A stretch of DNA of 52,140 nt from Bacteroidaceae bacterium (GTDB lineage: Bacteria > Bacteroidota > Bacteroidia > Bacteroidales > Bacteroidaceae). Location: contig JAFUFW010000083.1 of NCBI GenBank assembly GCA_017469685.1, forward strand, positions 1 through 52,140, in the 5' to 3' direction. The position numbers were made by a program, and so were the translations under genes. Numbering within the stretch: position 1 is the stretch's first letter; each line of letters begins with the position of its first letter. Below the pieces are notes generated by a model. The model searched no databases. It was not told where the DNA came from and saw nothing but the letters and a program-made list of their open reading frames with translations. This document shows, piece after piece, positions 13,884 through 52,140 of the stretch.

Positions 13884-14951
13884 ATGGAAAAAATTAAGAT
13901 AGGAATCACTCATGGCGACCCTAACGGAATCGGTTATGAGGTTATCTTCAAGACGTTCGCTGACTCTGGAATGTTTGACCTCTGCACCCCCGTCGTCTAC
14001 GGCTCGCCTAAAGTGGCCAGCTACCATCGCAAGACTCTCGACCTGCAGACCAATTTCAACACAGTTAATTCACCAGCCGATGCCGCTGAAGGAGTCCTGA
14101 ACCTTGTCCACTGCACAGCCGACGAGGTTAAGATAGACCTCGGGCAGGCTACAGAGGAAGCCGGTCGCGCATCCTTCGTGGCCCTTGAGCGTGCCGTGAA
14201 GGATTGGAAGGCTGGGCTGATAGATGCCTTGGTGACGGCGCCCATCAACAAATACTCTATTCAGAATGAGTCATTCCACTTTCCTGGTCACACCGAGTAC
14301 ATCAGCAACCGCGTCAGCCACGACGGGCAGGAACCACTCATGATACTCATGACGGAACACCTGCGAGTAGCCCTTGTCACGACGCATTTGCCTATCGCTG
14401 AGGTGGCAACTAACATCACCGAGGAGCACGTGCTTGCACGACTGCGCTCTCTCGCAAATTCGCTGCGCCGCGATTTCGGCATTTCCAACCCACGCGTTGC
14501 CGTGCTGGCGCTCAACCCACATGCTGGCGACAGCGGGCTGCTCGGTACTGAGGAGCAGACAGCCATAACTCCGGCCATAGCCAAGGCCGAGGACGAAGGC
14601 TTGACCGTTTACGGCCCCTTCGCTGCTGATGGCTTCTTCGGCACCCGAGCCTATGAGCACTACGACGCCGTATTGGCAATGTACCACGACCAGGGCCTCG
14701 CACCTTTCAAGATGTTAGCCATGGCCGACGGCGTGAATTTCACGGCCGGACTCGACATAGTGCGCACTAGCCCCGACCATGGCACCGGCTATGATATCGC
14801 AGGAAAGGGCATTGCCGACGAGAACTCCTTCCGTCAGGCTATATACACAGCCATCGACATAACGCGAAACAGACAAGCGTGGAACGAGGCTCACGCCAAC
14901 CCCCTCGAAAAACTCTACATAGATAAACGCGACCGCAGCGAACGCGGCTGA
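13884..14951 (+). CDS. pdxA: 4-hydroxythreonine-4-phosphate dehydrogenase
   Basis: A 355-aa NAD-dependent enzyme of pyridoxal phosphate synthesis. Seen are GITHGDPNGIGYEV at the start, LVTAPINK, the metal-binding HFPGHTEY segment, LNPHAGDSGLLG, and GPFAADGFFG then AMYHDQGLAPFK, ending VRTSPDHGTGYDIAGKG. Length is slightly above the usual 330-350. It starts 88 bases after DUF4837, and its stop is two bases before the ATG of the sigma-54 activator gene, so the two are co-transcribed. Confidence 0.95.
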   Translation: MEKIKIGITHGDPNGIGYEVIFKTFADSGMFDLCTPVVYGSPKVASYHRKTLDLQTNFNTVNSPADAAEGVLNLVHCTADEVKIDLGQATEEAGRASFVALERAVKDWKAGLIDALVTAPINKYSIQNESFHFPGHTEYISNRVSHDGQEPLMILMTEHLRVALVTTHLPIAEVATNITEEHVLARLRSLANSLRRDFGISNPRVAVLALNPHAGDSGLLGTEEQTAITPAIAKAEDEGLTVYGPFAADGFFGTRAYEHYDAVLAMYHDQGLAPFKMLAMADGVNFTAGLDIVRTSPDHGTGYDIAGKGIADENSFRQAIYTAIDITRNRQAWNEAHANPLEKLYIDKRDRSERG

Positions 14952-14953
14952 CG

Positions 14954-16213
14954 ATGAACGCAAAAGACCTTCAACCCATTAAACAGCGCTACGGCATCGT
15001 GGGCAACTGCGAAGCCCTCAACCACGCCATTGATACCGCTCTGCAGGTGGCGAAGACCGACCTCTCGGTACTCATCACCGGTGAGAGTGGTGTTGGTAAG
15101 GAGATAATACCACGGCTCATCCACGACAACAGCCTCCGTCGCCAGCGTAAATACTTTGCCATCAACTGCGGTAGCATCCCTGAAGGAACCATCGACAGCG
15201 AACTCTTCGGCCACGAGAAAGGTGCCTTCACTGGAGCAATCGGAGAGCATGAAGGCTACTTCGGAGCAGCCGACGGCGGCACGCTATTCCTGGATGAAGT
15301 TGGCGAGCTGCCGCTGAGCACGCAGGCACGACTCCTGCGCGTGCTCGAGAACGGCGAGTACATTCGCGTGGGCTCCAGCGAAGTACGCAAAACAAATGTC
15401 CGCGTCGTAGCAGCCACGAACGTCAACATACAGATGGCTATCCGCGATGGAAAATTCCGCGAGGACCTCTTCTATCGCCTCAATACAATACCCATAAAGA
15501 TGCCCCCACTGCGCGAACGCGGTGATGATATCCTCTTGCTGTTTAAGAAGTTCGCTATGGAGATAGCTGCCAAGTACCAGATGCCCGAGCGCATCACGCT
15601 CACCCCCGATGCCGAGGAGGTCATGAAGCGCTACAAATGGCCTGGCAACGTCCGGCAGCTCAAGAACGTAACCGAGCAGATGTCCATCCTCTTGCGCGAC
15701 TCGCGCCTCGTCACGCCCAGCATACTTTCCGACTACGAAATATGGCCCACCATAGAAGAGAATGGAGGACTTGTGCGTGTAAGTCAAGGTGCAGCAGGCA
15801 GCCACTCATACGACAATGAGCGTGAGATGCTCTTCCAGATGATTAATGCTCTTCACCGAGAGGTCAGCGAACTTAAGCAGCAGCTTGCAGGTGTGGCACC
15901 GGCAGCTACAGCCAATGTCCATGTGCCCGCAAATGTTCCAGTAGCAGATGCAGAAGTCGTTCCCATCATGAGCCAATCTCATATCCAGCAGCCCATCGTC
16001 AGCGACCATCGCCCCGCGACCCACGACGACTCCACGCTCTATGCAGAGGAGTATGTCGAAGAGTCGCTCTCTATTGACGAGCAGGAGAAACGCCTCATTA
16101 TACGTGCTCTCGAGAAAAACCGGGGGCGAAGAAAAAAAGCTGCGGAGGAACTACACATCAGCGAACGGACACTATATAGAAAGATTAAAGAATATGGACT
16201 TGAAGAAATATAG
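14954..16213 (+). CDS. Sigma-54-dependent transcriptional activator (AAA+), no receiver domain
   Basis: A 419-aa enhancer-binding protein. The AAA+ domain starts almost at once: Walker A GESGVGKE (43-50), the sigma-54 loop GAFTGA (90-95), Walker B GTLFLDEVGE (109-118), and an R-finger region RLNTIPIKMPPLRERGDD. A variable linker follows (about 280-360), then a Fis-type helix-turn-helix at the end (RGRRKKAAEELHISERTLYRKIKEYGL). There is no N-terminal receiver, GAF or PAS domain, so control must come from level or partner. In Bacteroidales this gene sits between pdxA and lptE, as here; its targets are unknown. Its last 20 bases overlap the start of lptE. Confidence 0.9.
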   Translation: MNAKDLQPIKQRYGIVGNCEALNHAIDTALQVAKTDLSVLITGESGVGKEIIPRLIHDNSLRRQRKYFAINCGSIPEGTIDSELFGHEKGAFTGAIGEHEGYFGAADGGTLFLDEVGELPLSTQARLLRVLENGEYIRVGSSEVRKTNVRVVAATNVNIQMAIRDGKFREDLFYRLNTIPIKMPPLRERGDDILLLFKKFAMEIAAKYQMPERITLTPDAEEVMKRYKWPGNVRQLKNVTEQMSILLRDSRLVTPSILSDYEIWPTIEENGGLVRVSQGAAGSHSYDNEREMLFQMINALHREVSELKQQLAGVAPAATANVHVPANVPVADAEVVPIMSQSHIQQPIVSDHRPATHDDSTLYAEEYVEESLSIDEQEKRLIIRALEKNRGRRKKAAEELHISERTLYRKIKEYGLEEI

Positions 16214-16712
16214 ATTTCGTCTCGCAGTTTGTTCCTGCGTGTTTGTGCTTGTGTCGTGCTCAATAAGCTACAAGTTCAATGGCGCGAGCATCGATTACAC
16301 CAAGACGAAAACCATACAGATTGACCAGTTCCCCATTCGCTCTGCCTACGTCTGGGCTCCCATGCAGGCAATCTTCAACAACAAACTTACCGACATCTTT
16401 GCTCAGCAGACTAAGCTTCAGCAGGTAAAGCGTGGAGGCGACCTCATAATCTCTGGTGAGATCACGGGCTTCGACCAATTCAACAAAGGCGTCGGCAGCG
16501 ACGGCTATAGTTCACAAGTTCAGCTGAAGATGACCGTAAACGTTCGTTTCACCAATAACAAGAACCACAAGGAGGATTTCGAACGACAATTCTCCGCTAC
16601 GACAGAGTATGATGCCACTCAGCAACTGGTCAACGTGCAGGAGGAACTCGTAACGCAGATGACCAAGGACATTACCGACCAAATCTTCAACGCCACAGTG
16701 GCCAACTGGTAA
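16194..16712 (+). CDS. lptE: LptE family LPS-assembly lipoprotein
   Basis: A 172-aa lipoprotein. ATG 16194 gives a proper signal peptide with lipobox LVSC (MDLKKYRFRLAVCSCVFVLVSC). The frame stays open upstream to 16041 but lies inside the sigma-54 gene. The body (SYKFNGASIDYTKTKTIQIDQF and so on) matches the Bacteroidetes LptE family, the plug of the LptD outer-membrane LPS translocon. The assignment rests on family and synteny. It overlaps the preceding gene by 20 bases, suggesting translational coupling, and is followed after 5 bases by the TPR gene. Confidence 0.85.
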   Translation: MDLKKYRFRLAVCSCVFVLVSCSISYKFNGASIDYTKTKTIQIDQFPIRSAYVWAPMQAIFNNKLTDIFAQQTKLQQVKRGGDLIISGEITGFDQFNKGVGSDGYSSQVQLKMTVNVRFTNNKNHKEDFERQFSATTEYDATQQLVNVQEELVTQMTKDITDQIFNATVANW

Positions 16713-16717
16713 AAACT

Positions 16718-17503
16718 ATGCAAGCACTTACGATTTACATTGATAATCCCGGACTGCTCGACGCTACAACGGTGGCTGAGTTGGGCCAGCTGGTGGATCA
16801 GCACCCCTCGTTCCAGGCGGCGCGGCTTCTCTATCTGCGTGGACTCTATCAGCTACAGGACGAACGCTTTGGCAGGGAACTGAGCCGTGCTGCCATCTGT
16901 ATGCCCGACCGTCAGCGCCTTTTTGAGCTCTTTGAGGCCGATGTGCTGCAGGCTGCCATTGAAGCCGATCAGGCTGTATCAGCCGAGAAGGTAGGGCAAG
17001 AGCCCTTGCAGCCTGCTGACCGCACCCTCTCACTCATTAATACATTCCTCGTCGGACAGCCTGCACAGCCCGCACCCAGACGCCCGCGTCCGGCAGAGGC
17101 CGCAGTTGACTACACAGCCTACTTGATGCAACTTGACGATGCCGCCCCCGAGGCAGTTGGGCCAATGCATACAGAGATGGTGACACTCGAACCTGAAAAA
17201 TCCAAGCCTATAAGGCAAGAAACTCCTGCTTCTGTAGTTGAAACCTCGGCAACAAAAATGGATGAAACCACAGACGATGAAGCCGACGATTCGGAAGCGC
17301 AAAACGACACAGCCGACACTTATTTTACTGAAACTTTGGCACGAATCTACATCAAACAGGGCAAATATGCAAAGGCAATTGAAATAATTCGTCGAATAAG
17401 TTTGCTTTATCCACAAAAAAACCGTTACTTTGCAGACCAAATCCGATTCCTTGAGAAATTATTGCTCAATGAAAGCCATAAAAACGAAAGGATGGAATCA
17501 TAA
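16718..17503 (+). CDS. Tetratricopeptide-repeat-like protein in the lptE-secG block
   Basis: A 261-aa soluble protein. The N-terminal 80 residues are helical and TPR-like (LVDQHPSFQAARLLYLRGLYQL). The middle (about 90-200) is low-complexity and acidic, rich in Pro, Thr and Asp. The C-terminus has one clear TPR (ETLARIYIKQGKYAKAIEIIRRISLLYPQK). No signal peptide. Function unknown; a gene of this form commonly lies between lptE and secG in Bacteroidales, so a role around envelope biogenesis is only suggested by context. Confidence 0.75.
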   Translation: MQALTIYIDNPGLLDATTVAELGQLVDQHPSFQAARLLYLRGLYQLQDERFGRELSRAAICMPDRQRLFELFEADVLQAAIEADQAVSAEKVGQEPLQPADRTLSLINTFLVGQPAQPAPRRPRPAEAAVDYTAYLMQLDDAAPEAVGPMHTEMVTLEPEKSKPIRQETPASVVETSATKMDETTDDEADDSEAQNDTADTYFTETLARIYIKQGKYAKAIEIIRRISLLYPQKNRYFADQIRFLEKLLLNESHKNERMES

Positions 17504-17540
17504 GAAGACGAGAATAATAATCAAATAATATTTAAACAAA

Positions 17541-17918
17541 ATGTACAATTTACTTGTAATCCTTGTGGTCATCGCATCAATCCTCATGTGCCTCATCGTA
17601 CTCATTCAGGAGTCGAAGGGAGGCGGACTTGCCAGCGGCTTCGCCAGTGGCAACCAAGTGATGGGTGTGCGTAAGACCACCGACGTCATTGAGAAACTCA
17701 CATGGGGCTTGGCAGCCGCAATGGTAGTCTTCAGTGTAACATCTGTCTTCTTCATCCCCCGCGCTGGCGGCAACATTTCTGTAATGGAAGGTGCAGCCAC
17801 CGAGCAGAAGGCTACTGCTCCTACCAACCTGCCCGGCATTCCTGCAACCGACGTGCAAGAGGCTCCCGCAGCCGAAGCACCCGCAGCCGAAGCGCCCGCT
17901 GAGGCACCTGCTAACTAA
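17541..17918 (+). CDS. secG: Preprotein translocase subunit SecG
   Basis: A 125-aa protein with two membrane helices (residues 3-22 and about 53-75) joined by the conserved SecG loop QESKGGGLASGFASGNQVMGVRK. SecG stimulates SecYEG protein export. The C-terminus (about 85-125) is an Ala/Pro/Glu-rich tail with an APAAEAPAAEAP repeat, an extension often seen in Bacteroidetes SecG. GH115 begins three bases after its stop. Confidence 0.93.
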   Translation: MYNLLVILVVIASILMCLIVLIQESKGGGLASGFASGNQVMGVRKTTDVIEKLTWGLAAAMVVFSVTSVFFIPRAGGNISVMEGAATEQKATAPTNLPGIPATDVQEAPAAEAPAAEAPAEAPAN

Positions 17919-31968: not shown

Positions 31969-32008
31969 TTTTGTTGCTATTTTTGCTCAATCTGGAAACA
32001 GAATTTTT

Positions 32009-32050
32009 AGGCCCTAACGTGCTTGCATAAAACACGATAGGGCCTTTTTC
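32009..32050 (+). terminator. Rho-independent terminator of amn-holA
   Basis: AGGCCCTAACGTG (32009-32021) pairs with CACGATAGGGCCT (32033-32045) with one mismatch and an 11-base loop, then a T run. Confidence 0.85.
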
Positions 32051-32721
32051 TTGGCCTTGAGAATCGCTCAGAAAAATCGCCGCCGCCAATCTTCGGGCTG
32101 CAAGACACGCACGCGATTTTCACAAGCCGGCGGTTTGAATTTACAAATCTTTACGTTTTGTGGCCTGAACGATTTGGTTTTATGAATTTACAAACCAGTA
32201 TTTCAAAAGCCGAACTTCCATTGATTTATAAATCAAAACCCGGGTTTAACACCCGCAAACTTTACGTGTGAATATGCAAACTCCCCTGTTCGAATAAGTG
32301 AATAAATATTTATTTCTTGTAGACAATACGTGCTAATAAGCCGAAAACCAATAATATGCCAAATCGTCAACCCTTATTTTTATTCATAAAGGTCGCTTTT
32401 TGCGAAAAACACACGCTCGGGAATTGATTTTCTTAGCCGTGTATAGTTTAGTTGGTAAAGAATCAGTGTTTTAGGAGAATTGATTAAAGGGTTTTGTTTA
32501 AGCATATGTAAATGTATTCTTTTATATTTGCGTTTGCAAATGCGAATCTTTGCAAACGTGAATTTAAACTTTTAAAGTTCGAGTTTTAAAACGGATCGAA
32601 AATATAAATTTAAAGATTTTCGATTAAAAATTTGCAGGTTTAAATTCTTTTTTCTTACTTTGCAGCGCAAAACCTCATAGGGAGTAGTCATTGGCCTATC
32701 AAAAGTAGTCCCAGAAGAGCA
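32051..32721. other. 670-base AT-rich palindromic intergenic region
   Basis: No gene is visible. It is far more AT-rich than its surroundings and full of short symmetric motifs. CGTTTGCAAA (32531-32540) faces TTTGCAAACG (32549-32558), perfect. CGAAAAT (32597-32603) faces ATTTTCG (32616-32622). GAATTTACAAA occurs twice (32137-32147 and 32184-32194), and CTTTACGT occurs twice. It precedes a DNA-binding regulator gene, so clustered operators are one reading. Confidence 0.55.
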
Positions 32722-33183
32722 ATGAAAGAGCGTATATATAAGATCATGCAAAGCGAGAATATGACGCAGCGCGAGTTTGCGCAAGCCTTAGGTATCTCGC
32801 CATCATCGCTCTCGAGTATCTTCAATGGGCACACCTCTCCGACAAACTATACCGTTCAGGCCATTCATCGACAGTTCCCCGACATTAACATCGCATGGCT
32901 GATGTTTGGCGAAGGTGAGATGCTCTCTGGAGATTCTCACGCCACCGATGCCGACGAGGCTCAGGCTGTCGAAGGTGCTGCATCGCAGACGCAACCCGCT
33001 GCATCCAGTCCCGCCGAAAGCCTCACCGCTCAAACCACGCCTGCAGAGGCAGGCGCACCCGCTCAGGTGATAATAAGAGAGACGGTGAAATATGTTGACA
33101 AACCGCAGCGTAAGATTGCCCGAATCCACATCTTGTATGATGATGGAACCTTCGAGACCTTCGAAGGTGGAGCCGCAAAATGA
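32722..33183 (+). CDS. XRE-family helix-turn-helix regulator
   Basis: A 153-aa protein. Residues 1-60 form a Cro/C1-type HTH (RIYKIMQSENMTQREFAQALGISPSSLSSIFNGHTSPT), followed by WLMFGEGEM, the common continuation in Bacteroidales regulators. The middle (70-115) is Ala/Thr/Pro-rich and low complexity. The C-terminus (KIARIHILYDDGTFETFEGG) forms a small beta segment. Targets are unknown; the palindrome-rich region upstream suggests autoregulation. It is next to the CRISPR leader, but nothing ties it to the cas genes. A good terminator follows. Confidence 0.85.
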   Translation: MKERIYKIMQSENMTQREFAQALGISPSSLSSIFNGHTSPTNYTVQAIHRQFPDINIAWLMFGEGEMLSGDSHATDADEAQAVEGAASQTQPAASSPAESLTAQTTPAEAGAPAQVIIRETVKYVDKPQRKIARIHILYDDGTFETFEGGAAK

Positions 33184-33336
33184 GCCACGAAGCAGTCCCT
33201 CGATGCAATGTCAGAGCCGTAAATGACGGCTGATCTTATCGATTCAATTCTGTAAAAAACATATCATATATCACTTTTACCCAAGAATGCTGGCCGCAAA
33301 TCCTCTTTTCTACTCCTTATTTTCTTAAGCGGCCCA

Positions 33337-33377
33337 AAAAAAGGAGCTCCACCCGTGAGGGCATGAGCTCCTTTTTT
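33337..33377 (+). terminator. Rho-independent terminator after the XRE gene
   Basis: AAAAAAGGAGCTC (33337-33349) pairs perfectly with GAGCTCCTTTTTT (33365-33377). It is symmetric enough to work on both strands, and so also shields the CRISPR leader. Confidence 0.85.
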
Positions 33378-33600
33378 GTTTGACCCTTCCTGAATCCCTA
33401 AACCTTATCACTCAATAAGCCTGGATACAGAATGTCTGGATAAAAACTGCCTATTAATATATCTACAACCCTGTATACTCAACACCATCGCAGCCGATCT
33501 CTGCACTATCGAAGGCTAAGCAAAAATAATAAGGAACTAAGTCCATCGTCGCTTCACTTATGCCCCTTCGAATGATACTGCCTCTTTTTTTTCTTCTATT

Positions 33601-33633
33601 TTTGCACAACATCGCAAAAAAGCACTATCTTTG
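33601..33633 (+). promoter_or_regulatory. CRISPR leader promoter
   Basis: TTTG (33601-33604), 21 bases, TATCTTTG (33626-33633): a near-perfect Bacteroidetes promoter pointing into the array. The leader then contains a 12-base partial repeat (GTTGTGAATTGC, 33661-33672) before the first full repeat at 33686. Confidence 0.75.
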
Positions 33634-33685
33634 CAAGCGAAATAAGCTCTTTGACATTTTGTTGTGAATTGCTGTCATTTTCAAA

Positions 33686-34270
33686 GTTGTGAATTGCTTG
33701 AAATTCTTCATCTTTGAACCATCATAAACACCTTAAGGCTTTTATCTCTGATTCAGATAAAGTTGTGAATTGCTTGAAATTCTTCATCTTTGAACCATCA
33801 TAAACACCTGGCGCCCTTTCCAGCCGTTCCCGTCTCTTGTTGTGAATTGCTTGAAATTCTTCATCTTTGAACCATCATAAACACCACACGTGGCGTGACG
33901 CAAGTAGGCCCGCTTGTTGTGAATTGCTTGAAATTCTTCATCTTTGAACCATCATAAACACCCACCAGCCACCATATTTAGTCAGTGCCATGGTTGTGAA
34001 TTGCTTGAAATTCTTCATCTTTGAACCATCATAAACACCTGACACCGCGACAGGCCGCACCACGGGTCAGTTGTGAATTGCTTGAAATTCTTCATCTTTG
34101 AACCATCATAAACACCCACAATATACGCCCTGAATGATAACAAGGTGTTGTGAATTGCTTGAAATTCTTCATCTTTGAACCATCATAAACACCGCTCTTT
34201 TGGGTTCAGAGTATTAGCGGCTTGTTGTGAATTGCTTGAAATTCTTCATCTTTGAACCATCATAAACACC
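33686..34270 (+). CRISPR. Type II-C CRISPR array, 8 repeats and 7 spacers
   Basis: Eight 47-base repeats start at 33686, 33762, 33839, 33916, 33993, 34070, 34147 and 34224. Each begins GTTGTGAATTGCTTGAAATT and ends CATCATAAACACC; no base differs between copies. Spacers are 29 bases (the first) or 30 bases. The 47-base repeat beginning GTTGTG and ending AAACACC is typical of Bacteroidetes II-C systems. The tracrRNA anti-repeat at 40026 pairs with repeat bases 1-20, fixing the sense strand as plus. Transcription is therefore convergent with cas2. I see no match of any spacer inside the window. Confidence 0.98.
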
Positions 34271-34341
34271 ACGATTCTGGTAAGATGGTATTAATCAAAG
34301 ATTTAAGGCATGACTTAGAATTAAAAAAAAGTTTATGATTT

Positions 34342-34379
34342 GATAGCGGACTCTGTCAGTATCGACAGAATCCGCTATC
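34342..34379 (-). terminator. Terminator between cas2 and the array
   Basis: GATAGCGGACTCTGTC (34342-34357) and GACAGAATCCGCTATC (34364-34379) pair with one mismatch and a 6-base loop. On the minus strand an eight-T run follows after about 12 bases, so it mainly ends the cas transcript and may also stop the array transcript. Confidence 0.65.
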
Positions 34380-34393
34380 CAAAGATGATGCGG

Positions 34394-34744
34394 TCAGAAG
34401 AGTTCAAGCTGTTGTCCAGGAGCTTCGGGCGATTTCTCTTTCTTGCCATAGAATAGTTGAATGTCGCCGAACTGCTTGTCAGTAATTCCCAAAATGCCAA
34501 CCTTCCCGTACTCTGGAAGTAACGCCCGAACACGCTTCATGTGTACTTCCATGTTCTCTCTGCTTGCACAATGCCTGATATAAATTGAAAACTGGAACAT
34601 CGTGAAGCCGTCGCCCATGATGTCCTTGCGGAACTTTGTCGCCGCCTTGCGTTCCTTCTTGGTGTCGGTGGGCAAGTCAAAGAAAACGAGAATCCACATA
34701 ACGCGATACTGGCTAAATCGTGAACTTTCGTCGATGATAATCAT
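34394..34744 (-). CDS. cas2: CRISPR-associated endoribonuclease-fold protein Cas2
   Basis: A 116-aa protein with the Cas2 ferredoxin fold. YRVMWILVFFDLPTDTKKERK has the conserved Asp after beta-1, and GFTMFQFSIYIRHC follows. Cas2 bridges two Cas1 dimers for spacer insertion. I use ATG 34744, five bases after the cas1 stop; the frame extends further upstream inside cas1. Translation is likely coupled to cas1. Confidence 0.93.
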   Translation of the reverse strand: MIIIDESSRFSQYRVMWILVFFDLPTDTKKERKAATKFRKDIMGDGFTMFQFSIYIRHCASRENMEVHMKRVRALLPEYGKVGILGITDKQFGDIQLFYGKKEKSPEAPGQQLELF

Positions 34745-34749
34745 GGCCC

Positions 34750-35688
34750 TTACGCATCCATTTGAGGATAGCTGATCTTGCGCAGTTCGCCGCTGAAGCA
34801 TTTATAGAGCGAGGCTGTTGTCTGGGACGCTGCAACCATCAATGGGCTGCGCTTGCCGTCAATGACGACGTCGAGCACGGGAATGGACAGCAGTTCTACC
34901 TTCAGCTCTTTCGTCAGCTCAGAATAATCAGGGTGACGCTGCATAATCTTTATTACCAACTCATCGACGTAGGGGCGATAAGGCTCCATGATGTCATCGG
35001 CCAGACAATAGGCGTTGTAGCGGTTGTGGTGGTGGATGCCGAGGGTGGGAAGGAGTCCGCTGCTGACCAAAGACCTTGCGATGACGGCGCGCAGGATGGC
35101 GTAGCCGTAGTTCAAAAGATTGTTAGGTGGCGCTTCCTCGCGGCCTCTGACGAAATCGGGAATCTCGGGAAAGATGTTGCGCCAGTAGTAAGCCGCCGCC
35201 CTTGCTTCGAGGTTGTCGGCATCGCCGCTGCGCACCTCATCCACCCATACACGCATACACTTGGTTTGTGCTTCGGTGTAGGTGCTCAGTACCACCTCCT
35301 GATTAGCAATCTTCTGCTTTATTGTCTGTTGCCACAGCTGTTTGCGCAGCGGTAGCGATGCGTCGAGTTGATCGCGGAAACGCTCATTCTGTAGTGTGTT
35401 GCCGTAGAGCGGCAGCATCAGTCCTACGGGCATACTGCGGCTGTCGCAGGTGATGACGGAGGCGTTGTTTTCCAGCAGAGCTTCCATCGCTCCCGTGGTG
35501 ATGGTGATGCGTTTGTTGTCGAGCACTACGACTCCGATGTCCTCTATCGGTATCGTGCGCTCGTTCATCTTCTTGAACTCCGGTGTCAGCGTGTCGTTCT
35601 TCTCCACGTCTGGCAGCTGAATCACCAGTTGCCTGTTGCGGAGGCTGAGGTAAGCAGGATTGGAAAAGCAAAGCGTTTTCTTGATCAT
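34750..35688 (-). CDS. cas1: CRISPR integrase Cas1, type II
   Basis: A 312-aa integrase. ATG 35688 (MIKKTLCFSNPAYLSL) is preferred over upstream starts because those lie in a terminator stem. Features include GVVVLDNKRITITTGAMEALLENN, NLLNYGYAILRAVIARSLVSSGLLPTLGIHHH with the active-site His and AYCLADDIMEPYRPYVD with the acidic metal ligands; the catalytic Glu is in the LEARAAAYYW helix. Length matches type II-C Cas1. It lies 55 bases after cas9, separated by a hairpin and T run. Confidence 0.96.
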   Translation of the reverse strand: MIKKTLCFSNPAYLSLRNRQLVIQLPDVEKNDTLTPEFKKMNERTIPIEDIGVVVLDNKRITITTGAMEALLENNASVITCDSRSMPVGLMLPLYGNTLQNERFRDQLDASLPLRKQLWQQTIKQKIANQEVVLSTYTEAQTKCMRVWVDEVRSGDADNLEARAAAYYWRNIFPEIPDFVRGREEAPPNNLLNYGYAILRAVIARSLVSSGLLPTLGIHHHNRYNAYCLADDIMEPYRPYVDELVIKIMQRHPDYSELTKELKVELLSIPVLDVVIDGKRSPLMVAASQTTASLYKCFSGELRKISYPQMDA

Positions 35689-42942: not shown

Positions 42943-45900
42943 TTACCACTGGTTGGACAGCATCTCGAGCATGTCTTGTGCTGTTAGTTTGAAGTTTTGT
43001 TCGGCTCCTTCGAGTATGCTGTCGGAGATGGCGCGCTTCGACTCGTGGAGGCGTATGATTTTCTCTTCTATGGTGTGGTGACTTATGAGATGATACACAG
43101 TGACGGCCTGCTGCTGCCCGATGCGGTAGGCTCGGTCTGTGGCCTGCTGCTCGATGGCAGGATTCCACCATGGGTCAAGATGAATGACGTAGTTGGCGGC
43201 AGTGAGGTTGAGGCCTACGCCTCCGGCCTTGAGGCTTATGAGGAAGATTGGCGCCTTGCCTCGCTGGAAGTCAGCCACAATCTGTTCGCGCTGGCGTATG
43301 GTAAGGCTTCCGTCAAGGTAGAGGAATGGCTTGTGGGCTTCCTTGAGGGCGCGGGCTACTATTTGGAGGAACGATGTGAACTGGCTGAAGACGAGCACGC
43401 TGTGGCCACCCTCGACGATGTTGCCGGCCAGTTCCATGAAGGCATTTACCTTGCTCGAACCCTCTATCCACGAAGGGTCTGTGAGCTCGGCGGAGCAAGC
43501 TGTCTGGCGCAGGCGTGTTATCTCGGCAAGGGTGTTGACACTTAGCTTGTCGCCCGACTCCTTGAAGCGCTGCTCGGCTTCGCGGCGGATGACTTCGTAG
43601 AGTGCCATCTCGTCGGGCGTAAGTTCTACTTCGAGGTTTATCTCGGTCTTGTCTGGCAGTTCCTTGGCCACGGCCTGCTTTGTGCGTCGCAACATGAATG
43701 GGGCCACAATGGCCTGCAGCTGTTGTTGCCGCTCTCTGTCCTGAAGCGTCTCGATAGGTTGGATATATTTGAGGTGAAACTGCTCATAGGTGCCGAGCAG
43801 GCCAGGGTTGATGAATTGAAAAAGGTTCCAAAGCTCTCCAAGATGGTTCTGTACGGGCGTACCAGTGAGGATGATTCGGTTGCGGCCTGAGAGTTGCATG
43901 CAGGCGGCGCTTGTCTTGGTGCCTCGGTTCTTGATGTTGTGGGCTTCGTCAAGGCAGATAGTAGCCCACTGCTTGGCTGAGAGCATGTCCTGCAAGGGAG
44001 AGAGCAGGCCATAGGTGGCGAGCAGCACGTCGCCAGCTCCAGCTTGATTGATTGTAGCCTGACGGTCAGACTTTTCTGTGAGAATCTTTACTTGCAGTGA
44101 GGGGCTGAAGCGTTCTAACTCATTGCGCCAATTAGGCACTACGCTGGCGGGAGCTACCACAAGGGCTGCACCTTCGATAGCATGGGAGAGCAGGAACGCA
44201 ATGGTCTGCACCGTCTTGCCCAGGCCCATATCGTCGGCCAGACAGGCACCGGCGCCCCAGGCCGCGAGTCGCATGAGCCATTGGTAGCCATCTGTCTGAT
44301 AGGGGCGCAGTGTGGCTAAGAGGTTCTCTGGCACGTCTGGGATGGCTTCTTCTGCCTGTTCAATGCGGTTCTTGAGGCTGAAAAGTTCCTCGTCGTGGTG
44401 AATGTCAATCTCGCCGCTGACGATGTCAGCCAGGAGTCCTGTTTGCAATGTGGATATTGCGAGGTGATTGTTCTCGGTCGTTGAGAGGCTCTCGAGGGCA
44501 TCGAGCTGGCGTCGAAGCTTCTGGCTGAGCCACAGATAGTCGCCTTCCTGTAGTTGGACGTATCCTCCGTGGCTGCCGGCCAATGCTTGCAGGAGCTGTT
44601 CGGCAGAGATGAGTGTCTTGTCATCGAGGCGCACGTCACCTTCAATCTCGAACCAACGTCCGCGATGTGTGAGACTGATGTTCCAATCGGCCTTCTTGGG
44701 CGCCCTCATTCGCAGCCGTTCGCCTTCGGGCCACTCGGTGCCGCAGATGTCAGGGTGGCTGCTGGCAAAGGCCAACAAGTCGAGCACCTGGGGAGTGGTA
44801 AGGTGAGCGTTGAGCGTGCGGGAGAGTTCTATGTCATGCTCTTGGCAGAAATCCAGCAGCGCACTGAGATTGCGCGCCTCTGCTTCCATGTCTCTTTCCA
44901 CGCGTATGCGGAGCGAGGTCTCGCTTTGGTCAATGATGACGTTGTCGCCCTGTGCAGGAGGCAGTGTCATCAGTCCTCCTGCAAGCGGGCGCACGAGGAC
45001 GTAGGCGTCGAACATGGTCTGTGCTGTAGGGTCAGGTGTGAGACGCAGAATGATGTTGGTCTGCGGCTGGGTGCACACTTCCTCGTCCTCTGCAAGTAGG
45101 CAGCTGTGGATGTCTGTGATATTGCTGATGAGGGGCAGCAGCTGGCGCAGCTTCTCCTCGGCAGCAGCGGGATAGTCGGTCACCGAGAGTATATCCTGAA
45201 GCACGGCGCGCTCGCGTTCCGACATTGGGAAGTAGATGTAGTGCATAGCATCTTCGCGGTGGTAGACGCTGGTCTGCGAGATCATGTCCTGGAATGTGAC
45301 ATTTGACTGTAAGTGGAACCCGCCGTCGGAGGTGCGTTCGAGGATTATGTAAGGCTTCTGCTCGTCGATGGTCACGCGGCGGAAGGGTGTCTGTTCGCCG
45401 GTGTAGACTCGGTCAGAGCCTACGAGATGGGGCAGGATGATGCCCAGCGTCAGTCGAGAAGCGCCGAGGAAACGCACGTCGGCCACGATTGCTTGGTCTG
45501 TACGATCCATGAAAGGCTCCAGGCCTCCGATAAAGCGGTTCCAAGGCAGTTGTTTGCCGCAGCCCCAACGCCCATCCTTCAGGCGGTTCTGCTCGCGCAG
45601 TTCCACGCTCTCGCCATCGCTAAGGATAGTGTACATCACGCGGTGCTCGCCTTCGTCGGTGTCATCAGTGTGTTGGCTCTCGGTGGCAATGAGGCGATCA
45701 ATCATCACCTCCCATGGCTCTTTTGCCTTTGCGAGCGTCGACGCGGGTTTGTTGCCGAAGGCTGCTGCCAGTTGTTTCTTCTCGAAGCGGTTGAAGGTGA
45801 TGTATGGTGCCGCCTCGTGGCGCAGGAAAGCGGCCTGCGGATTGAAGTTCGCACTGATGTCCATGCCAGTGAGCTTGGCAGCCAGCATGAGGGCCATCTG

Positions 45901-46944
45901 CTGCTGGAGCGCATACTCGCGTTCGGCGAGCGTGTCGGGCGTGATGAGCTTCGAGAGTAGGTCCATGTCCACACGCTGAATTGGGTTGGCGAGCGTGTCG
46001 GCCAGCAGTGCTGCTGCCCCTAAGCGGCGCAGGTTTGTCTCTTTGGCGTGAGCCACGAAGGCTGCGAGCCGCGAGCGTGCGTCGCTGGGCTTTGATGTCC
46101 ATAGGGCTATGACCCAGTAGAAAGCCGCAATACCGTCGGCAAGAAACGGTTCCGGAGCCTTCGTCTTGCCAGCCTTGGCGTTGAGCGCTTCGTTGAAAAC
46201 CTTCAGTGCCAGGTCGCTTTTCCCGTGTGCCATTGCATGGACGCCCTTTGAAAGGAAGTCGGGGTAGGTCATGCGAATGCTGGTGGGCGGCGTGTACAGC
46301 CCTTTCATAACGAAATTGTAATAGGCTATGAGCGCCTTCATCTGGCGTATGTCAGGGTCTGTAGGATCAAACTTACGCATATCCAGCTGTCGGCTGATGA
46401 TACCTTCTGGGTCGGTGAAATCCTCCTTCATCCATTTTGTGAGAAGGGCTGAGAGGAGCGGTACGAAGTCGAGGTCGCGCACCATCGTCAGCAGAGGCAC
46501 AAACCTGCGGTCGTGGGCCAGACTGATGAGGTAGGGTGGGAGAGAACTCTCGAGCACCATGGGTTGCGGACGCTTGCCTGCGTGGCATAGGCGCACGGCT
46601 CTCTGAAGCTCGAAGAAAGCGGTATAGCGAGTGAGGGGCCAGCTCTCAAATTCGTCAAACCATTCGGGATGCTCGTCGAGCACGAAGCAGAGCACCTCGC
46701 CGTAGCAGCGGGGGCGGATGACGTTCTGTGCCGGGGCAAAATGTGTTGCAGCGATGTGGCTTACTAAGCCTTCACGGATGAGCTCGTCGGTCAGCAGGGG
46801 CAGCTCGCCCATCATGCACGTGCCGTGGACTGATAGCTGCAGCAGATCCTCTTCCTTGACATCCAACCCTATGTAGGCATACAGCGCTGCTGCTTTCTGT
46901 GTCGCGGGCTTGAGGCTTTTCAAGTGCTGAATTATGAAGTTCAT
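42943..46944 (-). CDS. Large SNF2-family DEAD/DEAH helicase
   Basis: A 1333-aa protein. ATG 46944 ([13 protein letters not shown]) is used; the frame runs 93 bases further upstream but that part holds the promoter. The first 850 residues are family-specific, without motifs I can name apart from repeated helical segments. The helicase core starts near residue 860: DDMGLGKT (I), [11 protein letters not shown] (Ia), LDEAHNIKN (II), [11 protein letters not shown] (III), [12 protein letters not shown] (IV), [15 protein letters not shown] (V) and [10 protein letters not shown] (VI). All motifs are intact. Bacterial SNF2 proteins of this type (RapA-like) translocate on double-stranded DNA. The precise role is unknown. 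Confidence 0.9.
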
Positions 46945-47007
46945 TATATATTTATAATGTATATGGGTTCTTTGTTGGGGATAATTCACAAATGTCAATT
47001 GACGGCG

Positions 47008-47038
47008 CAAAGGTAAGCATTTTGTTGGAAACCACAAA
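47008..47038 (-). promoter_or_regulatory. Promoter of the SNF2-trmD operon
   Basis: On the minus strand TTTG (47038-47035), 19 bases, TACCTTTG (47015-47008). Full consensus, 64 bases before the ATG. Confidence 0.75.
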
Positions 47039-47152: not shown

Positions 47153-49231
47153 ATGTCTGAACAAGAACGTATAGCCCAGCTACGGGCTGAGCTCCACCGC
47201 AACAACTACAACTACTATGTCCTCAACGCACCCGCAATCAGCGACCAGGACTTCGATGCATTGTTGCGGGAACTGCAGGAGCTGGAGGCCCACCACCCCG
47301 AACTCTTCGACCCAAACTCACCTACTCAGCGTGTGGGCAGCGACTTGAGCAATAAGTTCGAAAGCGTGGAGCATCAGTATCCGATGCTTTCGCTGGCAAA
47401 CACTTACAATCGCGAAGAGGTGCGCCAATTCTACGAGCGCGTCAGCGAAGGGCTGGCAGGCGAGCCGTTTGAGATCTGCTGCGAACTGAAGTTCGACGGC
47501 CTGAGCATCTCGCTCGTCTATGAGGACGGCCGCCTTGTGCGTGCCGTAACACGCGGCGACGGCGTGCGTGGCGACGACGTTACAGCTAACATCCGCACCA
47601 TCCGCACCATACCTCTGCAGCTCGGGTCGCAAGCGCCGATGCCCGCTGTTGCTGCAGACGGTCAGGGCGACCTCTTCGCTGCGCCCGCATTAGAACCCGT
47701 AGTCTCATGGCCGCAACGCTTCGAGATCCGTGGCGAGGTGCTCATGCCCTGGGCTTCGTTTGAGGCTTTGAACATAGAGCGCGAGGCTGAGGAGGAGCCG
47801 CTCTTTGCCAACCCGCGCAACGCCGCCAGCGGGACGCTCAAGAGCAAACAGACAGCCATCGTTGCCAAGCGCAAGCTGGACGCCTACCTCTATTATCTTT
47901 TAGGTGAAGATTTGCCAGCCGAGGGGCATTATGAGAACATGGAGGCTGCGCGCTCGTGGGGATTTAAGGTCAGCAACCACATGTGCAAGGCGCGAACGCT
48001 GGACGAGGTGTTCGCTTTCATCGACTACTGGGACGTCGAGCGCAAGAATCTGCCCATAGCCACCGATGGCATCGTGCTCAAAGTGAACAGCCTGCGACAG
48101 CAGCAGACCCTGGGCATGACGGCCAAGAGCCCACGCTGGGCCATTGCCTACAAGTTCCAGGCCGAGCAGGCATCGACCGTCTTGCGTGAAGTCACCTTCC
48201 AAGTGGGGCGCACGGGAGCAGTAACGCCGGTGGCAAACATGGATCCCGTCCAGCTGTCGGGCACCATCGTGCGGCGAGCTACGCTCCACAATGCCGACTT
48301 CGTTGCGCAGCTCGACTTGCATGTGGGCGATCATGTCCTCGTAGAGAAAGGCGGAGAGATCATCCCAAAGATTGTCGCCGTAGACGAAGCCTTTGCTCAT
48401 CAGCCACGCGGTCCGAAGGTTGAATTCATCAACCGTTGCCCTGAGTGCGGTGCCGAGCTGGTGCGTTATGAGGGCGAAGCAGCCTGGTATTGCCCCAACG
48501 AGACAGGCTGTCCACCGCAGATCAAAGGGCGCATCGAGCATTTTGTAAGTCGCAGGGCTATGAATATCGACACTCTCGGGCCTGAGACCATCGAGGATTT
48601 CGTTTCCCGTGGGCTTATCCGTAACTATGCCGACCTCTACGGCCTCCAGGTCGACCATCTCAGTGGTGCCAACGACTCGCGCATCCGTTCGGCTCGCAAA
48701 ACCATCAAGGCTATCGAGGACTCACGTCAGGTGCCCTTCGAGCGCGTACTCTTTGCCATGGGCATACGCTTCGTGGGTGAGAGTGTGGCCAAGACGCTGA
48801 CCCGCAACTTCAAGACCATTGATGCGTTGGCGCAAGCTTCGCTCGACGACTTCCTTCAGATCAACGGCATTGGCACAGCCATAGCCGAGAGTGTCATCCA
48901 GTGGTTCCGCAACAGCGACAACCTCCGTCTCGTTGAGCGTCTGCGCGGCTATGGCCTCCAGCTGCAACTCTCTGATGATGTTCTTTCTCAGCAGAGCGAC
49001 CGCTTGGCGGGCCGCACCATCGTCATCAGTGGCGTCTTCGCTCACCATTCGCGCGACGAATACAAGGCCCTTATCGAGCAGCACGGAGGCAAGAACACCG
49101 GAAGCATCTCCGCCAAAACCTCTTTCATCCTCGCCGGCGAGAACATGGGTCCCGCCAAGCTCGAGAAAGCACAGAAACTCGGCGTCGCCATCATCCACGA
49201 GGACGAGTTCTTGAAGATGATTGAGGATTAA
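47153..49231 (+). CDS. ligA: NAD-dependent DNA ligase
   Basis: A 692-aa ligase that seals nicks in replication and repair. Domain Ia contains [22 protein letters not shown]; the adenylation site is ELKFDG (Lys113). The OB fold, the Cys4 zinc finger (CPECGAEL and WYCPNETGC), the HhH region ([16 protein letters not shown]) and the C-terminal BRCT domain ([28 protein letters not shown]) follow in order. Residues about 160-190 ([20 protein letters not shown]) are an extra loop not usual in the family, without palindromic DNA. Complete otherwise. Confidence 0.97.
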
Positions 49232-49243
49232 ATAAATAATTTC

Positions 49244-49322
49244 GCGTCAAACATATGGAACATGTCACCGCCCGACATCCCTTTGCAGATGCGGGCGGTG
49301 ACATGTTCCATATGTTTGACGC
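49244..49322. terminator. Long perfect hairpin after ligA
   Basis: A 31-bp perfect inverted repeat (49244-49274 with 49292-49322), loop of 17 bases with inner CATC/GATG pairing, followed by AAAAAA on the plus strand and preceded by AT-rich sequence. It begins 12 bases after the ligA stop. A terminator role is likely. The host composition ends here and AT-rich phage-like DNA starts. Confidence 0.75.
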
Positions 49323-49369
49323 AAAAAATATATTCTTCCTTTTGTGCGCTGTTCGGAATTAGTTTCATA

Positions 49370-49483
49370 TTATCCTAAAGGTGTTGGGGGTGTTATTGGT
49401 ACTGAGGAGTAACTATCTATATTAGGGTTAAAACATACATATGCTATTAATAGCAATACACATACTGTAATAAATATCATCAT
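49370..49483 (-). CDS. Putative 37-aa single-helix membrane peptide
   Basis: MMIFITVCVLLLIAYVCFNP followed by a polar Pro/Thr-rich tail ending in TAA. One membrane helix plus a short tail resembles small phage or mobile-element membrane proteins. It follows the other AT-rich minus-strand genes. Coding status is uncertain because of the size. Confidence 0.4.
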   Translation of the reverse strand: MMIFITVCVLLLIAYVCFNPNIDSYSSVPITPPTPLG

Positions 49484-49517
49484 AGCTTTCTTTTTTTAGT
49501 TTTCTTTCTTCGCAAGC

Positions 49518-49561
49518 AGTAAATTTCCCCAGAAATATTACTATGACTGGGAAAATTTACT
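49518..49561. repeat. Interrupted 15-bp inverted repeat
   Basis: AGTAAATTTCCCCAG (49518-49532) faces CTGGGAAAATTTACT (49547-49561) with one mismatch and a 14-base gap. It lies at the end of the recoded 83-aa gene. It could be a terminator stem or an operator. A TACTTTTG box (49561-49568) overlaps its right end on the plus strand. Confidence 0.6.
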
Positions 49562-49808
49562 ACTTTTGCATTATGAAACTAACTCTTGGTTTTGAAGGCA
49601 GTAAATCTGACTACGTGTTAGTATGCCTTGTGATAATTAAAATATTAGAGTGGTTATTCTCAAAAGAAGCTATTCTAATAAGATGATCGTTTTTATAGTT
49701 ATAGTGGTTTTTGCCATTTTTAAATATATCACGAATCACTAACGCCATCAACATCAACAGCACTATTGGAATACAAAGGACCTCTATAATTTTATCAGAT
49801 AATTTCAT
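49557..49808 (-). CDS. Small membrane protein, possibly TAG-recoded
   Basis: MKLSDKIIEVLCIPIVLLML opens a protein with one N-terminal membrane helix. In the standard code it stops at TAG (49611-49613, 65 aa). If TAG is read as Gln, as the large neighbour requires, it extends to TAA at 49557 (83 aa, one more TAG just before the stop). Its ATG overlaps the TGA of the upstream gene by four bases (ATGA). The family is not recognised. Confidence 0.5.
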
Positions 49809-50124
49809 AGACTGTTATATCTATAAGGTTTTCTATTACCTAAGTATTCTAAGTCATACTGGTTGCGATATGCTTCTTGTTCAAATCGAATATGGAAATA
49901 GGCAGTAGTCCAATTTCGGTATTTGAAATAGAGGACAAGCCATTCTATACCATACCAGATAAAGAACGGAATGTAAAGCAATTCACGCTGCTGTGCTGAA
50001 TGTATCAGCTCATGGTTGAGTTCTACTGGGTCTAAATCTCTTCGGTAAAGATGAACCCGAAGAAATTAATAGCCAAATAGTTTTTTCCAAAAGGATGTTT
50101 TTTGATTTTGATGATGTTGTTCAT
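49805..50124 (-). pseudogene. HExxH-motif membrane-associated protein, frameshifted
   Basis: Starts MNNIIKIKKHPFGKNYLAIN and FFGFIFTE, then loses frame near 50040. In another frame the homologous text continues: DLDPVELNHELIHSAQQREL, LLYIPFFIWYGIEWLVLYF, then FHIRFEQEAYRNQYDLEYLG, to TGA at 49805. NHELIH is a zincin-like HExxH. I recognise this as a common small protein of Bacteroidetes genomes and their phages, function unknown. One missing base explains the break; reading TAG as Gln does not, because the original frame also hits TGA. The start overlaps the upstream stop (ATGA). Confidence 0.6.
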
Positions 50125-50321
50125 GAAAATAAATTTTGAGAGCCATGATAAATCTTTCCATCTTTTAAAATCGCATATTCTCCTCGATTAAATCTTTCAG
50201 CCATTTCTTTTGCTTCTGGGTTGATTGGATTTGTTCGATAGGTGGCATAATAACAATTGGATTTAAAGCAACCTAAATATTTTAAACCTTCTGGTCTATC
50301 ATTATAATCTTTTATAATCAT
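50121..50321 (-). CDS. 66-aa protein of unknown function in the AT-rich phage-like module
   Basis: MIIKDYNDRPEGLKYLGCFK begins a small soluble protein ending GEYAILKDGKIYHGSQNLFS, stop TGA. It has no in-frame TAG. It starts two bases after the TAA of the large recoded gene and ends in a four-base overlap with the next, so the genes are one transcript. I do not recognise the family. Confidence 0.55.
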   Translation of the reverse strand: MIIKDYNDRPEGLKYLGCFKSNCYYATYRTNPINPEAKEMAERFNRGEYAILKDGKIYHGSQNLFS

Positions 50322-50323
50322 AA

Positions 50324-51733
50324 TTATTTTATTTTAAAGTTTATTGGAATTGGCATCTTTAATTTTCCATCTAATCCAACAAAAGCTCTTCTTGCATCTG
50401 GATTAGATTGTTGAAAAAAGTTATTTATTGTTGATAAATTAGGATTATCAATTAATTCTCTTGTTACATTATTTGAACCAACCAAACTTTGGTCGTTAAA
50501 AATTGACATATATTGATTTGTATATCGTAATTGTCCATTTTTACCCGATAATAACATATTTGTACTATTTGCAGACAAAGGATGTTCCCTAGTTACTGAC
50601 ATTTTACTTGCTTTAATTAATTCTCCAAATGTTGGAGTTCTACCATTTTGACTAACAAAAGTCATGCCAATCTACCCAGATGAAGGAGTTTTTGTTTCTC
50701 CGATATAAGAATATTTTGGTACTGAGGCTCTCATTCTTCCTAAGGTCATCTAATGCTCTCCAGATAATTGAAATCCTCTTTTACCGCCACCTCCTATATG
50801 GAAAAGATATGTATTAGGCATTTCTGTTTCTTGGGTTACTCCAAATAATGGTGTATCGTCCCTTTTAAATCTAGCATATATCCCATTACCAATTCCTTCA
50901 TTGTATTCAGGATAATCATAAAATTCTGCCGTTTTGTTATCTCCGACTGGATAAGAGCCGTCAAATTTTCCTAATTTCTTAGCAAAGGATTCAAAATAAG
51001 GTTGGTTTACATCTGTTTGTATTGCCCCATTTCTCTGAGCTAATCTCATATCTCTCCATCCTTGCCATCCATTTTTGACTTGATCTACATAAGGACGAAC
51101 CCATCCACGAGGATTTTTTGCAACAGTTGTTGGACCATATTGAAAAACATCTTTTGCAGCATCCTTTACTATTTGGTCTCCTGCTGAAAAAAGTGTTCTT
51201 GAGCCTCTTGTCATAAATGGTATAGCTCCACCTGTCAACATTCCTGGATTTGTCATTTCTGCTGCATCTTTATCTAAACCTATTTTGTCGGACACCCAAT
51301 TTGCCCATGTTTTACCTGTAGCAAATTTCGTGCCAGCATTAACGGTTTTAGAACCAACAGTTGCTCCCACACCTCCTATAACTGTTGTTACTGGTGCCGC
51401 AGCGAAACCAGCTATACCAGTTGCAGTTAATGCCGCAGCGGGAATAGTATACTTACCTTTAGGGATATTTCCGTTGGCATGATCATATTTAAACTATCTG
51501 ACATAATTATTAATGGCTCTGACAGGTGCAGATATCTATTCTGCAGTTTTGATAGTTCCCTGTCTCTATCTTGCTTGCTACTACTACTATTTCCACTACT
51601 GTTTAGTAGGTCTCGGATGAGTTTGGTAGTAGGGCTAATTAATATGTTGTTGATAAGCCAATTCTTCGGCAGCCTCACGTTGTTTTGCTTCTATAACCCA
51701 AGGCATTAGTTGTGATAAGTATTCTTCTGGCAT
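50324..51733 (-). CDS. 469-aa phage-like protein readable only with TAG as a sense codon
   Basis: From ATG 51733 (MPEEYLSQLMPWVIEAKQRE) to TAA 50324 one frame stays open for 469 codons if TAG is sense. The TAGs are codons 33, 46, 49-52, 56, 66, 80, 328 and 354. There is no internal TAA or TGA although the DNA is AT-rich. Six fall between codons 46 and 56, where reading TAG as Gln gives a Gln/Lys/Arg-rich run. A hydrophobic Ala/Gly/Thr-rich segment (about 95-130, AAALTATGIAGFAAAPVTTV) follows, then a soluble region (FATGKTWANWVSDKIGLD; PEYNEGIGNGIYARFKRDD). In the standard code it falls apart into pieces of 206 and 113 codons. I recall similar text from gut-phage and Bacteroidetes mobile-element proteins but cannot name a function; a virion or internal protein is a guess. 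Confidence 0.78.
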
Positions 51734-51750
51734 TTTTTCTTTCTTTTATT

Positions 51751-51990
51751 GTGACAATAAAAAGAAGAACTCTCCGTTATATAAGTAATTCCGTTTCCCC
51801 AGCGCTTGACGCATTAGATAAGGGAATCAAATCATTTTATATGAGCGGAAGAAACCTAATTCACACGATTATGATAGTTATTTATCACAAAGTTGAATTA
51901 GTGAAATCTTATTCTGAAAGATGGACATCCCACGAAATTTGCATGTTCATTTTAGCACTAATTCAACTTATAGTTGCAATAGTGTTTTAA
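51751..51990 (+). CDS. Putative 79-aa protein with C-terminal membrane helix
   Basis: An open plus-strand frame with a GTG at 51751 (VTIKRRTLRYISNSVSPALD) or an ATG at 51841. It ends in a hydrophobic helix (ICMFILALIQLIVAIVF) and TAA. It is divergent from the recoded gene, with only 17 bases between the proposed starts, so the ATG may be the real start. The minus strand here has frequent stops. No family recognised. Confidence 0.35.
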   Translation: MTIKRRTLRYISNSVSPALDALDKGIKSFYMSGRNLIHTIMIVIYHKVELVKSYSERWTSHEICMFILALIQLIVAIVF

Positions 51991-52007
51991 GATTTCAAAA
52001 CATTAGT

Positions 52008-52026
52008 GTCCCGTTAAAATTGGGAC
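52008..52026. repeat. Short inverted repeat, possible IS end or terminator
   Basis: GTCCC (52008-52012) faces GGGAC (52022-52026) within GTCCCGTTAAAATTGGGAC, just downstream of the partial ORF below. It is compatible with the end of an insertion sequence. Confidence 0.4.
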
Positions 52027-52036
52027 GAGTTAAATA

Positions 52037-52140
52037 TTAATCAAATAGCCCCGTAATAGGGGGACTTAATTGCTCTTTGACATCATTGGAATAAGTCTTA
52101 TCGAACAGTTCTCTGAGCGGTGTCTTGTCCGTAAGTGACA
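52037..52140 (-). CDS. C-terminal fragment of a probable transposase, cut by the window edge
   Basis: The minus strand is open from the right edge to TAA at 52037 and ends LTDKTPLRELFDKTYSNDVK and EQLSPPITGLFD. This resembles the tail of Bacteroidetes IS transposases, but 34 residues are too few to name the family. With the inverted repeat 11 bases further on, an IS end is the best reading. Confidence 0.4.
   Translation of the reverse strand, partial: SLTDKTPLRELFDKTYSNDVKEQLSPPITGLFD

Follow-up and report, generated by a model that had tools for sequence, protein, structure and literature searches.

A TAG-interrupted gene between host genes of a Bacteroidaceae contig is probably a piece of late DNA captured from a crAss-like phage with TAG read as glutamine

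Stop-codon reassignment in crAss-like phages is already established. Phages of the Zeta group are described as having genomes of 145-192 kb in which TAG or TGA is reassigned mostly in late genes, and their suppressor tRNAs as not always detectable (PMC7886860). Two further articles propose a regulatory role for this late-gene recoding (PMC12386605, PMC10136315), and one of them portrays crAss-like phages as seemingly strictly lytic (PMC10136315). Code-15 reassignment in human-gut crAss-like phages is reported to have been shown by metaproteomics (PMC9523058).

Here we analyzed a 52,140-nt stretch of DNA (the window), which is the entire contig C29 of a 2.83-Mb, 94-contig, 87%-complete MAG. Close to the contig end lies a long frame interrupted by TAG codons, hereafter the TAG gene (Table 1). 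It resembles the phages of PMC9523058 in its probable codon reassignment, here read from sequence and beside a standard-code host. Unlike the genes of Zeta phages, the TAG gene sits between host genes, and it has one 112-residue module in common with G531, a viral contig. G531 in turn resembles the Zeta Crassvirales in its length of 174 kb, its TAG-read late blocks, its standard-code early block and its lack of a detectable CTA tRNA, a likeness of size and code use to the group as described in PMC7886860 and PMC12386605. The openly licensed papers listed in our literature searches included no account of a bacterial contig with a recoded crAss-like gene flanked by host genes.

Table 1. Features of the AT-rich island and its borders (positions in the window)
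Feature	Position	Strand	Remarks
ligA-like gene (name presumed), host flank	47153..49231	plus	54-58% GC; 3' end conserved in genus
Hairpin, 35-nt arms, 97% complementary	49240..49326		just past ligA-like gene
83-aa ORF	49557..49808	minus	needs two TAGs read through, the second directly before TAA; ATGA overlap with peptidase-like gene
Peptidase-like gene	49805..50124	minus	ATGA overlap with 66-aa ORF; frameshift near 50040 breaks gene
66-aa ORF	50121..50321	minus	starts 2 bases past TAA of TAG gene
TAG gene, with Gly/Ala-rich '...ATGKTWANWVSDKIGLDKDAAEMTNPGM...' module common with Crassvirales protein	50324..51733	minus	469 codons, 11 in-frame TAG
AT-rich stretch (31% GC) upstream of TAG gene, reaching IS end	51734..51999		composition
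End of host insertion sequence (IS)	52000..52140	minus	last transposase codons, TAA ~52037; contig ends inside

A codon scan of the TAG gene placed TAG at codons 33, 46, 49, 50, 51, 52, 56, 66, 80, 328 and 354, and revealed no TAA or TGA before the terminal TAA, a list identical to that of a preliminary description of this DNA. Nine of the 11 TAGs lie within the first 80 codons, and the Gln-type codons of the frame are CAA (20), CAG (3) and TAG (11). The remaining five frames across this gene contain TAG 34, TAA 79 and TGA 38, corresponding to a TAG share of 22.5% of stops. When the odds were recomputed with this share, the probability of an all-TAG outcome was ~7e-6 for 8 events, with the run at codons 49-52 counted once, and ~8e-8 for all 11; TAG-only stops exceed chance under either event count. 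The preliminary description had given odds of ~1 in 177,000. Its judgement that chance does not account for the pattern stands, but its premise of equally frequent stops and 11 independent events fails on the observed TAG share and on the run at codons 49-52.

Codon usage of the TAG gene was nearer to that of G531 late genes (-3.78 per codon) than to that of the host (-4.41), and TAG made up 2.3% of its codons (11/469) compared with 2.5% in G531 late genes. Under the G531 late-gene codon model, six segments were scored in all six frames. The TAG-gene frame ranked top in five of them, codons 1-32 and 33-95 among these, and was level with one antisense frame over codons 33-57 (-4.11 vs -4.08).

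The TAG-gene protein had no match in PHROGs or NCBIfam and a single Pfam match below the cut-off, and tblastn against phage and plasmid collections returned none even at E<=10. Viral and genome contigs scanned for exact peptides at first yielded no relative; such scans require exact short peptide matches and are insensitive, and overall they gave G531 or nothing. An 86-aa query restricted to the glycine-rich module gave one poor phage match (MT835470, E=3), and the motif W.NW...G...TNPG was common to the TAG-gene protein and a 981-aa protein of this phage. A DNA pattern built on the motif matched one viral contig, the 174,440-bp G531. Its homologue of the TAG gene (L080:16060-17484:-) is a 474-aa ORF that is open only with four TAGs read through. 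Residues 58-169 of the TAG-gene protein aligned to it with 51 of 112 positions identical (46%; blastp E=2e-23, tblastn E=1.5e-26), and the identity reaches past the search motif on the N-terminal side. The alignment spans TAG66 and TAG80 in the TAG frame. Homology covers 112 of the 469 residues, the remainder being without a relative found, and the G531 homologue itself matched no PHROG or Pfam family. The kinship with gut-phage proteins expected in the preliminary description thus escaped direct search and emerged from the motif-guided scan as a Crassvirales contig. Homology confined to separate standard-code pieces, which that description had named as contrary to its reading, was not what we found, as the alignment crosses both TAG66 and TAG80.

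The 981-aa protein of MT835470 (L046:5641-8586) resembles the TAG-gene protein in the 'W.NW...G...TNPG' module, over 59 residues at 42% identity. It differs in being written in the standard code and in carrying a fused Glucosaminidase domain (E=3e-9), which was not detected in the TAG-gene protein. Because the module in MT835470 is joined in one protein with a glucosaminidase domain, a virion or host/cell-entry role of the TAG-gene protein is suggested by analogy.

Searches of G531 revealed a crAss muzzle protein (crAss_MUZ, PF25731; E=2e-27), a terminase of phrog_6681 (E=7e-68) and a portal of phrog_6547 (E=1e-52). Its TerL matched 98 phage records, and many among the 40 of these 98 matches listed are named crAss-like. 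The nearest by TerL were MT835539 (44%) and MT835470 (42%), which places the latter phage in the nearest TerL group of G531, and the others among the 40 of 98 listed stood at 23-28%. Judged from its crAss muzzle protein and its crAss-type TerL and portal, G531 is a member of Crassvirales. It carries 14 distinct tRNAs, with no detectable CTA tRNA.

G531 was read as nine stretches (L074-L082). ORF coverage of L074, L075, L076 and L082 rose from 0.10-0.31 under the standard code to 0.85-0.98 with TAG read, and L078 and L079 followed the standard code. Intermediate values were obtained for L077 (0.61 to 0.90), L080 (0.58 to 0.72) and L081 (0.42 to 0.67). In a control that read TAA through, coverage reached 0.80 in L079, 0.79 in L080 and 0.72 in L081. 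Coverage does not single out TAG in these three stretches, because the TAA control covers more there than the TAG reading, and L080, with 0.79 against 0.72, is the stretch that holds the homologue of the TAG gene. Late blocks of G531 are open only with TAG read through, and its early block is in the standard code. The TAG-dense late block L074 also holds two related ORFs (14828-15901 and 16628-17545; MKYIVYKTTN.../MNYIVYKTTN...) with 0 and 2 TAGs, which look as if recently inserted from standard-code DNA and which we take to resemble GIY-YIG endonucleases. In MT835539, ARAGORN reported a tRNA-Stop with anticodon tta (L083 31614-31698); in this stretch the largest gain in ORF coverage comes from reading TAG and not TAA.

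Every TAG of G531 was masked as X, and the ORFs, 70 of them with TAG, were aligned to the last 47 kb of MT835470, a reference part in the standard code (7 in-frame TAGs in 13,677 codons). Opposite 112 TAG columns from 17 genes stood Q 34, E 17, R 10, K 8, T 7, N 6 and others, and 3 more columns were gapped. The Gln profile fitted the TAG columns best, 51 log units above Lys, indicating that TAG encodes Gln in the G531 lineage. Opposite the eleven TAGs of the TAG gene, the single homologue shows K, gap, G, E, T, N, A, E, E, K and V; the reliably aligned columns are TAG66 and TAG80 only, and both face E. Since Glu ranks second, after Gln, among the residues that face TAG in G531, its presence at these two columns neither proves nor refutes Gln. 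The earlier prediction that TAG columns hold Gln was therefore borne out in the genes of G531 (Q 34/112) and not at the TAG gene's own columns, where it meets one distant homologue and a tiny sample. For the TAGs of the TAG gene itself we infer Gln, the reading obtained for the related phage.

The host reads TAG as a stop. Among 24 long non-overlapping ORFs (>=250 aa) in 1-49231, 12 end in TAA, 6 in TAG and 6 in TGA, and RF1 is present (459 bits vs a cut-off of 423). No CTA anticodon was detected among the 44 of 44 host tRNAs found in the 87%-complete MAG (Rfam model; ARAGORN, 38 loci), or any CTA suppressor tRNA in the window. These observations agree with the earlier view that the host does not share TAG recoding. 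The CUA-anticodon suppressor tRNA sought on the same occasion did not appear in the window, among the 44 host tRNAs or in the G531 stretches. Together with the Crassvirales homologue in the TAG frame and the TAG-read late genes of G531, the standard-code host supports the preliminary description in its reading of alternative-code phage DNA beside a normal-code chromosome.

The TAG-gene protein was found in 1 of 101 relatives and, at E<=0.001, in 1 of 393 genomes of the order, the source genome alone. A 120-column profile of the module likewise matched the source genome alone, both among 399 genomes from the family and among 395 from the phylum. The order-level scan gave nine further rows from eight genomes at E 0.001-0.1; two were inspected (L002 and L003) and judged to be chance matches, and they presumably sit in ribosomal-protein and DJ-1-like chaperone regions. 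Ten weak rows of another scan were also read, those on the minus strand under a wrong frame or orientation; none resembled the gene, and they do not enter these counts.

GC content is 31-39% from ~49 kb to the contig end and 49-64% in the rest of the contig, except for 41-45% at 32-35 kb; individual pieces of the AT-rich island have 29-36%. The second lower-GC stretch, at 32000-35000, contains few long ORFs. Farther along the host side, a large ORF at 42943-47037 may be the cas9 named in the preliminary description, and no CRISPR-like repeat array was found beside it in 39.9-43.0 kb. The stops of the four-ORF minus-strand block that includes the TAG gene are TAA, TGA, TGA and TAA, never TAG. 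The 66-aa ORF had no match in Pfam, the phage collection or the viral contigs, and the 83-aa ORF was without a homologue, its best match in the phage stretches having E=1.7. The peptidase-like gene has relatives in G531, MT835539 and MT835470 at 33-48%, and its family was found in 53 phage records (up to 59%), one of which bears the label 'protease'. The top row for this gene was LR756504, a 636-kb uncultured phage, at 56%. Compared with five host-genus loci it reached 64-68%. Part of the island could thus be host-derived, since on sequence identity the gene is closer to the host genus than to the phage copies found (33-59%). On the plus strand, a 92-aa hydrophobic ORF (51712-51990) faces the start of the TAG gene and overlaps the AT-rich stretch upstream of it; it may be what is left of the 3' part of a truncated gene for a membrane protein, or simply a frame open by chance.

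Most probably the TAG gene is late DNA captured from a TAG=Gln crAss-like phage, and its present host would be unable to translate it in full; other origins were weighed against this reading. That it is an ordinary pseudogene, either a normal-code gene decayed with TAG stops by chance or one coding in the +1 frame over codons 33-80, seems highly improbable. The adjacent peptidase-like gene is indeed frameshifted, the +1 register over codons 33-80 is a stop-free 83-aa frame (51678-51427), and TAG codons 49-52 form one AGT-type tandem run. However, it is the TAG frame that a TAG-recoded phage shares over TAG66 and TAG80, codons lying inside the span of the +1 ORF, and both +1 coding and chance decay were rejected because homology crosses these codons in the TAG frame. 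The late-gene codon model, level in codons 33-57, favours the TAG frame elsewhere; the stop statistics of the other frames also speak against decay, as does the lack of an internal TAA in a gene with 20 CAA codons.

We consider it unlikely that the contig is a chimera in which a phage contig was misjoined to a bacterial contig near 49.3-49.5 kb, the gene then belonging to a free TAG=Gln crAss-like phage from the same sample. The abrupt GC change at the edge would fit such a join, as would the hairpin there, a possible terminator or insertion edge; the host-side edge of the island lies at this hairpin or slightly beyond. The restriction of the module to the source genome among those searched and the genus comparison point the same way. 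The region past ligA is variable in the genus, with one common ORF of ~450-500 aa in at least 8 of 27 loci, and the island was seen in none of the 27 loci compared past ligA (27 of 29 aligned; 1.2-1.6 kb each). Against a simple chimera, host DNA lies on both sides of the island. On one side is the ligA-like gene: a query with 48800-52140 found a match to some portion of it in 128 of 139 genus genomes, and the matches listed are mostly to the ligA 3' end, then to the IS end and the peptidase-like gene. The far end enters an IS of which the MAG has further copies, one at the end of C82 and one on C54 (389-aa transposase; DDE_Tnp_1 E=1.4e-32, DUF4372 E=5e-27); the boundary beside the TAG gene is sharp, and similar IS ends occur in the genus. 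The ligA edge is without a long repeat: when 49232-52140 was searched against its own genome, apart from the query region itself only two IS ends and the arm of the hairpin came up. For the TerL of G531, a search of the MAG (87% complete) at E<=0.1, run without a positive control, gave no match, which argues both against this explanation and against a whole integrated recoded prophage whose edge is the TAG gene and whose remainder lies beyond the contig end. The contig does end inside the IS, 0.4 kb from the TAG gene, leaving room for such a prophage; but the IS is a host element, and Crassvirales are described as not lysogenic (PMC10136315), and we regard this origin as quite improbable.

Under the preferred reading, capture of phage DNA, the TAG gene would be of late type and stem from a Crassvirales lineage in which TAG means Gln. 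It would have been captured together with its small downstream neighbours (~49.56-51.99 kb) into a standard-code Bacteroidales chromosome, and a host IS would have inserted beside the fragment. In the phage, full translation of such genes would have to wait until UAG is taken as Gln in the infected cell, and the TAGs may in this way serve as a lock on late proteins. In the bacterium, RF1 would terminate translation at codon 33, and the gene would for this reason be silent as a full-length protein; it is probably decaying, since its peptidase-like neighbour is already frameshifted. The capture route, the order of events and the silence in the host are what we infer from this arrangement. Against capture stand the occurrence of the gene in the source genome alone among those searched, the lack of Gln opposite its TAGs in the single homologue, and the seemingly strictly lytic habit described for Crassvirales (PMC10136315). 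There is very little to favour the idea that the bacterium maintains its copy for a purpose, as a code-locked gene: with nine of the 11 TAGs in the first 80 codons, nothing useful would be made until a recoding phage brought about the reading of UAG, and the full protein would then appear; if true, it would be a sensor or interference gene switched on by alternative-code phages only.

For annotation, the locus serves as a warning that code-15 fragments in bacterial bins show up as clusters of short false ORFs. A recoded gene between host genes is notable because crAss-like phages are described as seemingly strictly lytic. If the capture reading is true, recoded crAss-like DNA does enter Bacteroidales chromosomes, and the TAG gene would offer a natural case of what becomes of a gene unreadable to its new host.
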